Of a stretch of DNA of 64,000 bases, positions 45,080-50,392 are shown in pieces. Both the position numbers and the translations under genes were made by a program. A model generated the notes under the pieces. The model was not told the DNA's origin, did no database searches, and saw nothing but the letters and a program-made list of their open reading frames with translations. The stretch comes from an uncultured Fibrobacter sp. (GTDB lineage Bacteria; Fibrobacterota; Fibrobacteria; Fibrobacterales; Fibrobacteraceae), in assembly GCA_947165045.1 (NCBI GenBank), contig CAMUYW010000006.1, forward strand, positions 1 to 64,000, in the 5' to 3' direction. Positions within the stretch are counted from its first letter, which is position 1; every line of letters starts with the position of its first letter.

Positions 45080-46474
45080 CTACATGGCTTCGAGTTTTTT
45101 GCCCTTGGTTTCGTGCACCAGTTTGGCGACGAACACAAAGCTTATGGCCGCAAATGCCGTGTAAATCAAGTAGGTCGGGCCGATGCCGATACCGTCCTTA
45201 CCGACGAGCACAGGGAACGACCAGCTGACCAAGAAGTTTGCACCCCACTGGGCAAGGCCGCATATTGCGATAGCCACGGCACGAATGCGGTTGTTGAACA
45301 TTTCGCCGAGCATCACCCACATCACCGGACCCCATGTAGCGGCAAAGAATGCCACGTAGAAGTTTGCTGCGAGGAGGGCGAAAATACCGCTATTGCCAAC
45401 GAGGTTGCCGCTTGCGTCGGAACCGAAGATGAAGCAGCACGCGAGAATGCCAAGCGTGACTGTCATGCCTGCAGAACCGATGAGCAAGAGCGGCTTACGA
45501 CCTATCTTATCGATGAGGAGAATAGCAGCGATAGTCATGGTCAAGTTAATAGCACTGGAAATCACGCTCGTAAGGAAGGCGTCGCTCTCACCGAAACCGA
45601 CACTCTGCCAAAGCATGGAACCATAGTAGAAGATCACGTTAATACCCACGAGCTGCTGGAGGATGGCAAGACCGAGACCTGCCCAGACAATCGGAGCGAT
45701 GCGCTTTTTACCAGCAACCGTTTCGAGAAGGTCTGAAAGCATAGCCGGCTTGTGAGTCTTGAAGGAGTCTTCGATTTCCTGAGCCTTTTCCTTGATGCCG
45801 ACGGATGCAATCATCGAAAGCACTTTCTGAGCTTCTTCCATGCGGCCCTTGCTCACGAGGAAACGCGGGGATTCCGGGAGCTGCCAGGCGGCGACACCGT
45901 AGAGGAATGCCGGGATAGCTTCGACCCAGAACATCACCTTCCAGGATTCAATGCCCATAATCAGGTTACTTGCGGAACCGGAAATCTTAACGATGATGTA
46001 GTTCGAAAGCAGCGCCACGAAAATACCGATAACGATGGCGAACTGCTGCATGGATCCTAGACGCCCACGCAAATGCGCCGGTGAAGTTTCGGCAATGTAA
46101 ATCGGAGCGATGATGGAGGCAACGCCGATACCCACGCCACCGATAACACGCCATGCGATAAAGTCATAGATGGTGAACGGAAGGCCAGAACCGATAGCGC
46201 TTATGAAGAAAAGAATGGACGCGGCGATCATACAACGCACACGTCCAAATTTATCGGCCAGGCGGCCTGCAAAATATGCACCAACGGCAGCACCAATCAA
46301 TGCGAGAGACACTGCAAGACCAAGCTGCATGTCGTTACAATTGAAATAGCCCTTAAGTGCTACGTTTGCACCGTTAATCACGGACGAGTCAAAACCGAAT
46401 AAGAACCCTCCGATGGCGGCGGAAAGGGTTATCATAACGACGTGTCCAACTTTGTAATTGTCTTCTACTGCCAT
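45080..46474 (-). CDS. MFS sugar porter (XylE/GlcP/AraE-like sugar:H+ symporter)
   Basis: 464 residues, start ATG 46474 on the minus strand. Twelve hydrophobic segments. Sugar-porter signatures: GGFLFGFDSSVINGA in TM1, GRLADKFGRVRCM in the TM2-3 loop, RVIGGVGIGVASIIAPIYIAETSPAHLRGRLGS, PESPRFLVSKGR at the central loop, QQLVGINVIFYYG in TM7, and KIGRKPLL after TM8. It should import a hexose or pentose such as glucose or xylose. A perfect 15-bp dyad 93 bp upstream of the start suggests regulated expression. Confidence 0.93.
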   Translation of the reverse strand: MAVEDNYKVGHVVMITLSAAIGGFLFGFDSSVINGANVALKGYFNCNDMQLGLAVSLALIGAAVGAYFAGRLADKFGRVRCMIAASILFFISAIGSGLPFTIYDFIAWRVIGGVGIGVASIIAPIYIAETSPAHLRGRLGSMQQFAIVIGIFVALLSNYIIVKISGSASNLIMGIESWKVMFWVEAIPAFLYGVAAWQLPESPRFLVSKGRMEEAQKVLSMIASVGIKEKAQEIEDSFKTHKPAMLSDLLETVAGKKRIAPIVWAGLGLAILQQLVGINVIFYYGSMLWQSVGFGESDAFLTSVISSAINLTMTIAAILLIDKIGRKPLLLIGSAGMTVTLGILACCFIFGSDASGNLVGNSGIFALLAANFYVAFFAATWGPVMWVMLGEMFNNRIRAVAIAICGLAQWGANFLVSWSFPVLVGKDGIGIGPTYLIYTAFAAISFVFVAKLVHETKGKKLEAM

Positions 46475-46516
46475 ATTCGTACCTCTGTTTTTTAAAAGTT
46501 AATCGTGTCGAGCGGT

Positions 46517-46581
46517 AATATAGCTATCGGCTAATTGTAAATTCAAGGTTTACAAAAGAACTCGATAGTCCAAAATGGACT
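46517..46581 (-). promoter_or_regulatory. Perfect dyad and TANNTT hexamer ahead of the sugar porter
   Basis: AGTCCA-AAA-TGGACT at 46567-46581 (centre 46574) is a perfect inverted repeat. On the minus strand TATATT at 46522-46517 starts 52 bp from the centre, almost the spacing seen at the hydrolase promoters (51). The half-sites are arranged in the opposite order, so it may bind a related rather than the same regulator. Confidence 0.4.
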
Positions 46582-46938
46582 AACGTTATTCTTACTTTTA
46601 TTACTTTAGCCGAAAGTGTGTTATCACTGCTCCCGTTCTATATATAGATAGATATATATAATTTTCTTACAATGGGTGAACTTTTTTTGAATTTATAAGA
46701 TGTTTTCTTTTGGGGGAGGGTGAGGGCTCTTTTTGATTATTATACTTATAATAATTATGTTTATAATAATTGTTTTTTGAATAATTTGGATGACTTGAGA
46801 CTTGTCTCTTGCAGGGCTCAAAAGAGGCTCTGTAAGCAGTTCCGTTTCGCTTGCCCTACGCAAAAGTTTCTAAATTTACCGCCGAAAATTTAACGTTAGG
46901 TTGCGTTGGCGACTGACGTAGCGATTGTTGACGGTTTC

Positions 46939-46966
46939 TTTCGTCTTTCGTCTCTCGTCTTTCGTC
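46939..46966. repeat. Four tandem 7-bp TTTCGTC units
   Basis: TTTCGTC, TTTCGTC, TCTCGTC, TTTCGTC in direct array upstream of the ileS remnant. Function unknown. Confidence 0.75.
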
Positions 46967-46992
46967 TAGCAATTTCCTTCCGAGGTTCAAAA

Positions 46993-47135
46993 ATGTTTCG
47001 TGAAGTAAAGAAAGAAGAGACGTTGCGCAAGCGCCAACTTCTTCGCCTCGGTCATGGGAGCCTGTAAACAGTCTCTCGCGACTCTCGGCTTGCGAAGTTG
47101 TTCCACAGATCGAAGAGCGCGTACTTTCCCTCTGC
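46993..47135 (+). pseudogene. Degenerate duplicate of the ileS 5' end
   Basis: ATG at 46993 begins MFREVKKEETLRKRQ and stops at 47067. Its first 31 bases after the A of the start match the real ileS start (MALFREVDKNETF) at about 25 positions. After roughly 75 unrelated bases with inverted ends, codons for IEERVLSL at about 47105-47130 match VEERVLTL of ileS residues 15-22. Leader sequence TTTCTAAATTT...CCG...GAAAA is also repeated (46867 and 47160). This is a broken copy of the leader and first codons, interrupted by a small insertion. A 24-residue leader peptide is a less likely alternative. Confidence 0.6.
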
Positions 47136-47200
47136 TGTTGTTGCATTCCTGGTCAGATTTTTCTAAATTTTCCGCGAAAAATTTTTTAGAGGATATTACA

Positions 47201-50200
47201 ATGGCTTTGTTTCGTGAGGTAGATAAAAACGAAACGTTTCCTGAAGTTGAGGAGCGTGTTTTAACGCTTTGGGATAAGGACGACAGTTTCAAGAAGTCGC
47301 TGGACAGCCGCCCGGCTACCGCCCCGTACACTTTCTACGATGGCCCTCCGTTTGCAACGGGCCTTCCGCACTACGGTCACTTGCTTGCCGGTACCATCAA
47401 GGATATCGTTCCGCGTTACTGGACCATGAAGGGCAAGAAGGTTCCGCGCGGTTTCGGTTGGGACTGCCACGGCCTTCCGATTGAATCTCTCGTTCAGAAC
47501 GAACTCGGTCTCGCTGGCGTTGCCGAAATCCAGAAGCTCGGTGTCGACAAGTTCAACGAAACCTGCCGCAGCAAGGTGCTCAAGTACACCAGCGAATGGA
47601 AGAAGACCGTGCGCCGCATGGGCCGCTGGGTCGACTTCGACAAGGGCTACAAGACCATGGACAAGAACTTCATGGAATCTGTGTGGTGGGTGTTCAAGCA
47701 GTGCTTTGACAAGGGCCTCATCTACCAGGGCTACCGCATCCAGCCGTACAGCCCGGCCCTCGCGACCCCGCTTTCTAACTTCGAAACCAATCAGGGCTAT
47801 AAGGACCGTCAGGACCCGTCCCTCACGTTGATTTTCCCGATTAACTCTGACGAAGCCAAGTTCAAAGACACGAGCATCCTCGTGTGGACGACGACTCCGT
47901 GGACACTTTATTCCAACTTCTGCATCGTTGTCGGTCCGGACATGGACTACAATCTCGTGGAACAGGATGGCAAGAAGTATTGGATCGCCGCAAGCCGCAC
48001 CGCCGCCTACTTCAAGAACCCGAACATCGTCGATACCTGCAAGGGTTCTGAACTCGTGGGCAAGGACTACGAGCCGCTCTCCCGCATTTCCGATGCGTTC
48101 GTGACGCCGGACCAGCTGTCCCGCCACTACAAGATTTACCCCGCCGACTACGTGAGTACCGAAGACGGTACCGGCGCCGTGCATACCGCTCCTTCCTTCG
48201 GTGAAGAAGACTTCCAGAAGGGTGCTGAACTCGACCTCGGCCTTTTCGACCCGCTCGATACCGAAGGCAAGTTCACCGACAAGGTCCCGATGTGGAAGGG
48301 CCTCGGTGCGAAGGAAGCCGACAAGGAAATTATCCGCTACTTCAAGGAACAGGGCCGCGTGTTCAAGCAGGACGTGATTGTCCATAGCTACCCGCACTGC
48401 TGGCGTACCGGCGTTCCTCTGATTTACCGCGCCCTCAAGACTTGGTTCTTGAAGATCGACGCTCCTGTTACAAGCAAGGACGGCGTGACCAAGACTTTGA
48501 AGGAATGGATGGTCGAAAACAACCAGACCGTGAACTGGGTGCCGAGCCACATCCGCGATGGCCGCTTCGGTAAGTGGATTGCCAACGCCCGCGACTGGAA
48601 CCTTTCCCGTAACCGTTTCTGGGGTACTCCGATTCCGGTGTGGATTGCCGACGATGGCGAAATGATCGCCGTGGGTTCCATCGAAGAATTGCAGAAGTAC
48701 ACCGGCGTGAAACTCGACGACTTGCACAAGCACTTTGTCGACAAGCTCACGATTGAAAAGGACGGCAAGGTCTTCCGCCGCACGCCTGAAGTGTTCGACT
48801 GCTGGTTTGAATCCGGCTCTATGCCGTATGCCAGCCGCCACTATCCGTTCGAAAACAAGGAAGTGGTGGAAGCAAGCTTCCCGGCTGACTTTATCGCTGA
48901 AGGTCTGGACCAGACCCGTGGCTGGTTCTACACGCTGACCGTGCTTTCTAACGCTTTGTTCCAGAAGCCGGCTTTCAAGAACGTGATTGTGAACGGTATT
49001 ATCTTGGCCGAAGACGGCTCCAAGATGAGTAAGTCCAAGCGCAACTATCCGGACCCGAACGACTTGATCGAACGCACCGGTGCCGACGCCATCCGCTTGT
49101 TCATGATTAACTCCGCCGCTCTCAAGGCCGAAGACCTGCGCTTTAGCGAAGAAGGCGTGAAGGGTATCGTGAAGCAGGTGATGTTGCCGCTTTGGAACGC
49201 CGTGGCATTCTTTGTCTCGAACCACAACGCTGACGCCGCCAAGGGCCAGCTCACGTGGAAGCCGGGTCAGGAAGTCAAGAGCGACAACGAACTTGACCGC
49301 TGGATGCTCGCTACCTTGCAGGATCTCGCTGCCAAGGTTGAAGTGGAAATGAAGGCTTATCGTTTGTACAACGTTGTGCCCGCCGTGATCGCCGCTGTGG
49401 ATGACCTCACGAACTGGTATGTGCGCCGTAGCCGCCGCCGCTTCTGGAAGAGCGAAAACGATGGCGACAAGAATGCCGCCTACGCCACCATGTACAAGGT
49501 GCTCGTAGACTTCTCCAAGATTCTCGCTCCGTTCCTCCCGCTCCTCGCCGAAGAAATCTACCAGATTCTCGTTCGCGAAGTCGATGCTAACGCTCCGGTG
49601 AGCGTGCACCTCTGCGAATTCCCGAGTGCCGACAAGTCCCTTATGGACGAAGCCCTCGTGGAACGCATCGCCATGGTGCGTGGCATGGTTGAAATGGGCC
49701 GCGTCATCCGCGCTACGAACAACGTAAAGAACCGTATGCCGATTGCTAGCATGACGGTGGTTGCTCACGGTGCTGTGGAAAAGAATGTCGCCGAAACGAT
49801 GAAGGACTTGATCCTCGAAGAACTCAACGTTCGCGAAATGCAGTTCCTCGAAGACGAAACCAAGCTCGTGAAGCTCTCCGCCAAGCCGAACTTCCTCGCC
49901 ATCAAGGCGAAGGGCCCGGACTATGCGAAGAACATGAAGGTGATTTCCGCCAAGCTCAACAGCCTTACGGTTGATGAAATCAAGGCTCTGCAGGCTGGTG
50001 AAAACATCAAGTTCGACTTCGGTGAAGTCGGCGCTGACTGCTTGATGCTCAGCCGCATCGTGCCGGAAGGCCTCGCTGTGGAAGCGAACCAGCACTTCAC
50101 TGTGGCTCTCGACTTGAAGATTACCGATGACCTGCGCCGCGCCTGCGTGGCTCGCGAACTCGTGAACCGCATCCAGAACCGCCGTAAGGACCAGGACTAC

Positions 50201-50392
50201 GCTATCACCGACAAAATCGAAGTGACCTTGTTCTCTGCAAGCGAAGTCTTCAAGCAAGCGGTCGCGGAGAACGAAGCTTACATTGCTGGCGAGACGCAAG
50301 CCGTCGCCATCAAGTGGGCTGCATCTGCCGATGGTCTCGAAGCCAACGACGCCGATGGCGAGGCATTCAGCTTCACGACTGTTAAGGCTTAA
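47201..50392 (+). CDS. ileS: Isoleucyl-tRNA synthetase, type 2 (eukaryote-like)
   Basis: 1063 residues. ATG 47201 (MALFREVDKNETF) follows AGAGGATA; the frame open to 47054 covers the degenerate ileS copy and is not used. Class I aminoacyl-tRNA synthetase that charges tRNA-Ile. Motifs: HIGH equivalent HYGH in DGPPFATGLPHYGHLLAG, KMSKS in GSKMSKSKRNYPDP, FGWDCHGLPIE, and an editing (CP1) domain with TTPWTLYSN and GTGAVHTAPSFGEED. The HYGH form, the length and the absence of a C-terminal zinc finger fit the type 2 enzymes, which are typically insensitive to mupirocin. It stands alone, with its own terminator. Confidence 0.97.
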   Translation: MALFREVDKNETFPEVEERVLTLWDKDDSFKKSLDSRPATAPYTFYDGPPFATGLPHYGHLLAGTIKDIVPRYWTMKGKKVPRGFGWDCHGLPIESLVQNELGLAGVAEIQKLGVDKFNETCRSKVLKYTSEWKKTVRRMGRWVDFDKGYKTMDKNFMESVWWVFKQCFDKGLIYQGYRIQPYSPALATPLSNFETNQGYKDRQDPSLTLIFPINSDEAKFKDTSILVWTTTPWTLYSNFCIVVGPDMDYNLVEQDGKKYWIAASRTAAYFKNPNIVDTCKGSELVGKDYEPLSRISDAFVTPDQLSRHYKIYPADYVSTEDGTGAVHTAPSFGEEDFQKGAELDLGLFDPLDTEGKFTDKVPMWKGLGAKEADKEIIRYFKEQGRVFKQDVIVHSYPHCWRTGVPLIYRALKTWFLKIDAPVTSKDGVTKTLKEWMVENNQTVNWVPSHIRDGRFGKWIANARDWNLSRNRFWGTPIPVWIADDGEMIAVGSIEELQKYTGVKLDDLHKHFVDKLTIEKDGKVFRRTPEVFDCWFESGSMPYASRHYPFENKEVVEASFPADFIAEGLDQTRGWFYTLTVLSNALFQKPAFKNVIVNGIILAEDGSKMSKSKRNYPDPNDLIERTGADAIRLFMINSAALKAEDLRFSEEGVKGIVKQVMLPLWNAVAFFVSNHNADAAKGQLTWKPGQEVKSDNELDRWMLATLQDLAAKVEVEMKAYRLYNVVPAVIAAVDDLTNWYVRRSRRRFWKSENDGDKNAAYATMYKVLVDFSKILAPFLPLLAEEIYQILVREVDANAPVSVHLCEFPSADKSLMDEALVERIAMVRGMVEMGRVIRATNNVKNRMPIASMTVVAHGAVEKNVAETMKDLILEELNVREMQFLEDETKLVKLSAKPNFLAIKAKGPDYAKNMKVISAKLNSLTVDEIKALQAGENIKFDFGEVGADCLMLSRIVPEGLAVEANQHFTVALDLKITDDLRRACVARELVNRIQNRRKDQDYAITDKIEVTLFSASEVFKQAVAENEAYIAGETQAVAIKWAASADGLEANDADGEAFSFTTVKA

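Follow-up and report, generated by a model that had tools for sequence, protein, structure and literature searches.

A probable scar of ileS 5'-end displacement and a dispersed nested-hairpin family in Fibrobacter

Why does a broken copy of an ileS start lie just upstream of an intact ileS gene in a Fibrobacter genome? The question is raised by a stretch of 64,000 nucleotides from an uncultured Fibrobacter sp., called the window, which opens contig 6 (positions 1 to 64,000) of a genome of 3.3 Mb; its nearest named relatives, judged by ileS, are Fibrobacter metagenome genomes. The features of the locus are collected in Table 1. The ileS gene scores 898 bits against TIGR00392 (cut-off 621), and the stretch in front of it (46993–47129, hereafter the remnant) consists of two runs of ileS-like codons, ten that begin with an ATG and nine in another frame, on either side of a 77-bp insert. 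Between the end of the remnant (47129) and the true ileS ATG (47201) there are 71 bp. The divergent gene further upstream encodes, by the look of its sequence, a putative MFS transporter.

Table 1. Features around the ileS start, with positions in the window
Feature	Position	Strand	Basis or remark
Divergent transporter-like gene	45080..46474	-	Near ileS in many Fibrobacter genomes; largest upstream-ORF cluster, 32 members
Displaced type A ileS leader	46862..46992	+	88% to working G012 leader
Promoter-like motif TTTCTAAATTTACCGCCGAAAATTT in displaced type A leader	46867-46891	+	Shuffles and sequence
TTTCGTC array in displaced type A leader	46939-46966	+	Sequence
GAGG in displaced type A leader	46982-46985	+	7 nt 5' of ATG at 46993
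Remnant block 1, type A ileS start and first codons (MFREVKKEET)	46993..47023	+	97% to type A start
24-codon frame MFREVKKEETLRKRQLLRLGHGSL, stop TAA, no Ile codon	46993..47067	+	95-100% among six remnant genomes
Insert: small GCGCAAGCGC hairpin, then nested hairpin element	47024..47100	+	Absent from type A starts
Nested hairpin element, family model R1	47035..47101	+	83.2 bits; this copy is among the 23 used to build R1
Remnant block 2 (PQIEERVLS, codons 47103-47129)	47101..47129	+	91% to type A over 23 nt
Type B ileS leader	47160..47200	+	Related leaders precede other type B starts and G009, G097, G110
Promoter-like motif of type B leader	47160-47184	+	Sequence, repeat, shuffles
AGAGG of type B leader	47188-47192	+	Sequence
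ileS, isoleucine--tRNA ligase, 1063 aa, type B start MALFREVDKNETF	47201..50392	+	TIGR00392, PF00133

An earlier reading of the letters, made without database searches (the sequence-only reading), had recognized a broken copy of the ileS start and leader upstream of the gene. This copy is real: an ungapped direct repeat to ileS spans 31 nt with 81% identity (46994/47208), the leader repeat spans 25 nt with 88% identity (46867/47160), and the leader motif, with up to two mismatches allowed, occurs twice in the window compared with a mean of 0.00 in 100 shuffles. At the sequence level, ATGTTTCGTGAAGTAAAGAAAGAAGAGACG (MFREVKKEET) begins at 46993 and IEERVLSL occupies 47109–47132 in a different frame; translation likewise places the two blocks in different frames. 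The TTTCGTC array reported to precede the remnant is present as well, and arrays of this type occur, among the matches listed, at many sites in many of 61 genus genomes. Inside the repeated A+T-rich leader stretch sits the motif CTAHHTTT, which was found within the last 260 nt before 58 of 58 ileS starts and in 35 of 1000 random 260-nt pieces of the window. We take it to be the putative ileS promoter, by its likeness to promoters of the TAnnTTTG type. Just 5' of the upstream leader, positions 46805–46862 hold a degenerate stretch resembling a second class of hairpin, with flanks like GCTCGGAAATG and CGCTTCACTCGC; similar stretches also precede ileS in G034, G046 and G050.

To which ileS does the remnant belong? 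Among 58 ileS starts with upstream DNA, taken from 55 genomes, the working starts comprised 43 of type A (MFREVKKEETFPQIEERVL), eight of type B (MALFREV..., the window included) and five of a third form, MAKLFREV. The first block of the remnant is 97% identical to type A starts versus 81% to the window's own ileS. The displaced leader, including its TTTCGTC array, shares 88% identity with the leader in working use at ileS in G012, and leaders related to it serve working ileS genes in G061 and G062. Judged by these comparisons, the remnant is the 5' end of another ileS allele, of type A. The suggestion that it lies beside a replaced ileS stands for the 5' end, where the leader and first codons of another allele persist and a different start is in use; replacement by a type 2 ileS found no evidence, the first 339 IleRS residues matching across the genus and the best curated family being plain ileS.

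Divergence between the alleles is concentrated at the beginning of the gene. A comparison of whole genes, five of type B with six of type A, showed codons 8–22 to be the most diverged of 1045 15-codon segments (36% vs a median of 8%), and downstream of them the type B gene body follows the genus pattern. Among the type B genomes themselves, codons 8–22 are also above the median segment, yet they rank only 126th of 1045, and we therefore make no claim of uniquely fast evolution at this place. We also considered whether the type A start is conserved as a signal in the DNA itself and rejected this, as synonymous variation in its first codons is within the range seen elsewhere in the gene. Type B starts also occur without a remnant, namely in G097, which belongs to another genus, and in G009, where the type B leader and first codons are followed by type A-like codons. 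Over the first 339 residues, the IleRS of G097 and of G102 (other genus) are 96–97% identical to that of the window, which suggests, at the level of sequence, a transfer of ileS between genera. Both genomes carry cytosine methyltransferase genes near ileS (L232 in G097, L233 in G102), and the methyltransferase region of G097 includes proteins matching the candidate defence system PDC-M46.

The comparison across strains that the sequence-only reading had proposed was run with 47006–47121 as the query on 111 genomes of the family, 80 of them of the genus. The insert-bearing remnant was found in 10 of the 80 (G000, G019, G021, G036, G038, G041, G049, G056, G060 and G075), and only a scrap of its 3' half in G074. 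The same insert sits at the same place in G036, G056, G021 and G041; the hairpin is interrupted by a further insertion of ~54 bp in G019 and G075, G049 and G060 carry changes past the frame or within the inner stem, and the remnant of G038 is cut by the contig end. No insert is present in type A starts such as those of G012 and G028, and viral contigs contained zero exact matches to the 32-letter insert pattern. Diverged type B codons occur in seven genomes, six with the remnant and one (G074) with the scrap. rpoB was comparable in 19 of 30 chosen genomes, and the five of the ten remnant-bearing genomes among these do not form one clade (AU p = 0.0002, at least four changes). The distance to the gene varies too, with the remnant starting 2.8–4.9 kb before ileS in G041, G049 and G060.

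The insert itself belongs to a dispersed family. The earlier reading had described a segment of about 75 bp with inverted ends; measured against type A starts, the segment is 77 bp long (about 47024–47100), and its inverted ends are real and form the outer stem of a nested hairpin, whose match covers 47035–47101. A pattern of its exact flanks gave 22 matches in 7 of 10 genomes (0 for the reversed pattern), and 23 copies, the window's included, align and underlie the family model R1. In their common structure, a variable inner stem is set within an outer one, and the strands of the internal loop between them (CTCGGTCATG, CGCGACTCTCGG) are near invariant. Covariation was 0.478 as opposed to 0.163 in shuffled alignments and at most 0.167 with the partners slid, and 17 of 24 pairs had changed on both sides among the 23 copies; these values are to be read with caution, as the structure was drawn from folds of the very sequences tested. 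Pairing holds in 62% of the cells of the outer stem, a low value that is partly due to its variable register, and in 91% of those of the inner stem; in the remnant of G060, the inner stem differs and its pairing is kept. R1 matches occur in 93 of the 111 family genomes, including 80/80 of the genus, and in 6 of the 11 genera of the family. The search of the genome for the insert, also suggested earlier, gave at least 43 matches, one of them in the window. With no more than 46 candidates scored per genome, the counts of the census are lower bounds. Taken together, the distribution of the insert, the covariation and the family census support the invasion by a small hairpin element that had been supposed.

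Gene calling at 38 hairpin loci placed 4 of them within predicted genes; a 3' neighbour was defined at 26 loci and convergent at 20 of these. Neighbours were undefined at many of the 38, and we base no conclusion on this arrangement. Rfam returned 0 matches at E up to 1 in 45800–48200. The role of the hairpin can only be guessed at, as a structured RNA, for example, or a signal at gene ends. A limited literature search brought up nothing on either the ileS locus or the hairpins, and to that extent we regard the family as undescribed. This abundant family of structured hairpins, unmatched in Rfam and present in a group of cellulose degraders, is a more general discovery than the ileS scar.

The conservation of the remnant was unexpected. 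Aligned over ~129 nt, the window's remnant shows 96.9% identity with that of G036 and 93.8% with each of those in G019, G021 and G041, whereas the fourfold sites of ileS are 67.6–76.4% identical between the window and these four genomes. Among six genomes with a whole ileS, 11 of the 15 pairs combine a fourfold identity of 67–76% with a remnant identity of 93–97%, and the other four combine 82–87% with 95–100%. Fisher tests on five pairs each found a significant excess of the remnant over fourfold sites (p 4e-6 to 2e-12); four of these five came from the 11 pairs and involved the window or G036. Remnant identity is 67–78% (shared region) in pairs with G049 and 67–88% in pairs with G060, lower mainly past the frame. 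Vertical decay alone is unfit to explain these numbers, because the remnant stays at 93–97% where ileS fourfold sites are at 67–76%. Nor does the recent spread of one unit account for every pair, because the window and G036 have type B starts (codons 1–24) of only 82% identity. In that pair, identity is 100% in the frame to its stop, 93% in the remnant after the stop and 79% in the spacer plus type B leader, a value also found between the window and G019. In pairs among G019, G036, G056 and G075, the spacer is 93–100% identical, on par with the remnant. Either the remnant would be constrained, or it would have been passed around recently by crossovers hugging its edges.

If constrained, the remnant might be kept for a function, with a transcript from the type A promoter, the 24-codon upstream ORF and the hairpin influencing expression of ileS or the cargo described below. 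We consider this unlikely, although several observations speak for it. GAGG lies 5–8 nt before the ATG in 10/10 remnants even though their leaders are of several kinds, all nine remnants readable to the stop have an open frame (24 codons, 22 in G060), and the sequence of G049 changes directly past the stop. Among the six genomes, identity is 95–100% in the frame and 87–100% in the 55 nt after it, as opposed to 79–80% in the spacer plus type B leader when the window is compared with four of the other five; identity is higher in the frame than past the stop with p = 0.03 in two of four pairs but not significantly in the other two (0.28, 0.7). Against a function stand the spacer, itself 93–99% identical in some pairs (among G019, G036, G056 and G075), the distance of 2.8–4.9 kb from ileS in G041, G049 and G060, an RNA fold with a stability not above that of shuffled sequences (z = 0.54) and the lack of an Rfam match. 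Moreover, working type A genes conserve the first 30 nt as well, and recombination may refresh both this stretch and the GAGG.

The sequence-only reading had named a conserved frame with a ribosome site as a sign of a leader peptide. The open frame and the GAGG are there, but conservation is at the DNA level and extends beyond the stop rather than being confined to the protein; the sequences are compatible with a leader peptide as well as with its absence. T-box and amino-acid attenuator leaders combine a short frame and a hairpin before an aminoacyl-tRNA synthetase gene, as seen at the remnant. The locus differs in the second promoter-like motif between frame and ileS, in the absence of Ile codons and in the lack of an Rfam match, and neither candidate is supported: a T-box leader has against it 0 Rfam matches at E up to 1 in 45800–48200, and a classical Ile attenuator the lack of any Ile in the 24-codon frame. 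It is unlikely that the displaced start became a maintained control or recombination module, with frame and hairpin kept and travelling between ileS loci. If true, such a module stays nearly unchanged across Fibrobacter species while the adjoining real ileS start diverges.

A tandem duplication of the window's own ileS start followed by divergence and hairpin insertion, which the sequence-only reading had offered as one of two possibilities and with which the tandem placement and the common leader motif agree, is very improbable, because the remnant and the window's own start are different alleles, the remnant being closer to type A of other genomes (97% and 91%) than to its own ileS (81%, first block) and its leader resembling that of a working gene elsewhere (88%, G012).

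Longer displaced copies of ileS exist in related genomes. Nine long-copy candidates were examined, and seven end at or next to codon 312. Partial copies ending ...AAGATT (codon 312) run into the same repeat in G041, G011, G076, G002, G035 and G001; the joint lies one codon earlier in G049 and at about codon 370 in G058, again to the same repeat. G063 was left out of the partial copies, its contig ending with ordinary ileS sequence. The junction sequence at codon 312 is a repeat dispersed elsewhere in these genomes, and the distance from copy to gene is 1.7 to 15.6 kb in six of seven where the gene start was located. The intervening cargo comprises a type I restriction system in G002, FISUMP proteins in G041, G049 and G076 and a PIN-domain protein in G049. 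In G035 (L200), the cargo flanked by ileS encodes a predicted protein of 3866 residues with a hydrolase-like N-terminal and a lectin-like domain.

The near-fixed joint at seven loci and the cargo between copies could also be read as the scar of a site-specific integrative element that used the ileS 5' end as its attachment site and brought a replacement start. To this we give very little credence: no integrase or transposase domain was detected in 17 cargo proteins from seven islands (G060 included), a subset of the cargo ORFs, the joint falls on a repeat dispersed elsewhere, and G058 joins the same repeat at about codon 370.

A further multi-copy element, RNA-like and ~230–260 nt long, occurs 3' of the codon-312 junction repeat and elsewhere (L140:3675-3905; L142:7155-7390, L151:6425-6660, L161:3285-3522 and L162:6800-7035, all on the minus strand; L165:3475-3715; also L312-L319). 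It has conserved, potentially pairing blocks, with a terminator-like end in L140 and L162. Rfam searches of five related loci with this element gave two matches only, far below the curated scores.

The left leaders, those in front of the displaced copies, resemble working leaders of other genomes. G065 represents the empty state of the G041 site, with a 99% identical leader that runs straight into ileS, and further matches are G036–G050 (97%), G049/G060–G022 (96–97%) and G019–G054 (98% over 57 nt). Of the 13 left leaders compared, that of G021 had no match and those of G038 and G035 only short ones; those of G076 and G011 also match the leader of their own full gene (95% and 98%). Two partial copies are mosaics. 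That of G041 equals the full copy over codons 39–246 and diverges at both ends, a pattern of identity that the assembly of near-identical copies can mimic. That of G011 has a native 5' part and foreign codons 247–312, which are 79–52% identical to its own gene and 94–100% to the partial copy of G035 (best other match 82%). By their sequences, both look like marks of recombination between ileS copies. Many of the genomes are draft or metagenome assemblies, and several contigs end at ileS copies, which are error-prone for assemblers.

On balance, we favour, with a rough probability of 0.72, the reading that the window carries the scar of an ileS 5'-end displacement by recombination with related DNA. 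A type A allele would formerly have supplied the working leader and start at this place. Incoming DNA from a related bacterium would have paired with the ileS body and brought the type B leader and start, leaving the old type A 5' end upstream, shortened to about 22 codons, with a copy of the dispersed nested hairpin past codon 10 of the old start. Other stages would be preserved across Fibrobacter as empty sites, as codon-312 copies with cargo and a full ileS, and as short remnants. A piece of the older allele does adjoin the new one, the type A remnant lying by a type B ileS. From this series we infer the order of events, a mechanism of homologous recombination on the ileS side with a rare non-homologous joint on the other, and a derivation of the window's remnant from longer displaced copies. 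Two observations are consistent with an anchor in the ileS body: the peak of allele divergence at codons 8–22, past which the gene follows the genus, and the switch from native to foreign sequence within the partial copy of G011. Several points go against displacement: at 93–97% in 11 pairs, the remnant is too conserved for drifting debris, the joint of G058 lies at a different codon (about 370), the left leaders of G076 and G011 match their own full-gene leaders too, and the foreign part of G011 has, other than the partial copy of G035, a best match of 82%.

Under the displacement reading, an essential translation gene in several Fibrobacter species has had its 5' end displaced and lies next to exchanged cargo, a restriction system among it, and the genomes offer snapshots of what look like intermediate stages. 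It also yields a testable idea, namely that cargo moves between bacteria with pieces of a housekeeping gene as homology arms.

Known systems share parts of this picture. REP and other short palindromic elements are short, mostly extragenic, high-copy and hairpin-forming, as is the family described here. Unlike in REP, the stems of the Fibrobacter family vary from copy to copy with pairing kept, and the internal-loop strands are near invariant; in contrast to REP/RAYT systems, the Y1 transposase domain (PF01797) was found in 0/5 Fibrobacter genomes searched, and it is present in G102, of a related genus. For the ileS side, the closest parallel is the displacement of T6SS effector genes in Vibrio, where homology-facilitated illegitimate recombination is proposed for displaced effector genes and orphan immunity arrays (PMC5361080); the same process is reported in E. 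coli conjugation (PMC3240628). As in the Vibrio account, one side would be anchored by homology and the other joined without it, the displaced gene part stays by the newcomer, and ordinary homologous spread may follow later. The present case differs in that the displaced part is a 5' end, belongs to an essential housekeeping gene and has a promoter-like leader of its own, that the proposed anchor is the downstream gene body and that the joint is common to several species. A further likeness is to Rhs C-terminal displacement (as described in PMC5361080), in which displaced gene ends lie beside a constant part; displaced ends are common to both, and in Fibrobacter they are 5' rather than 3' ends, with ileS as the constant part.
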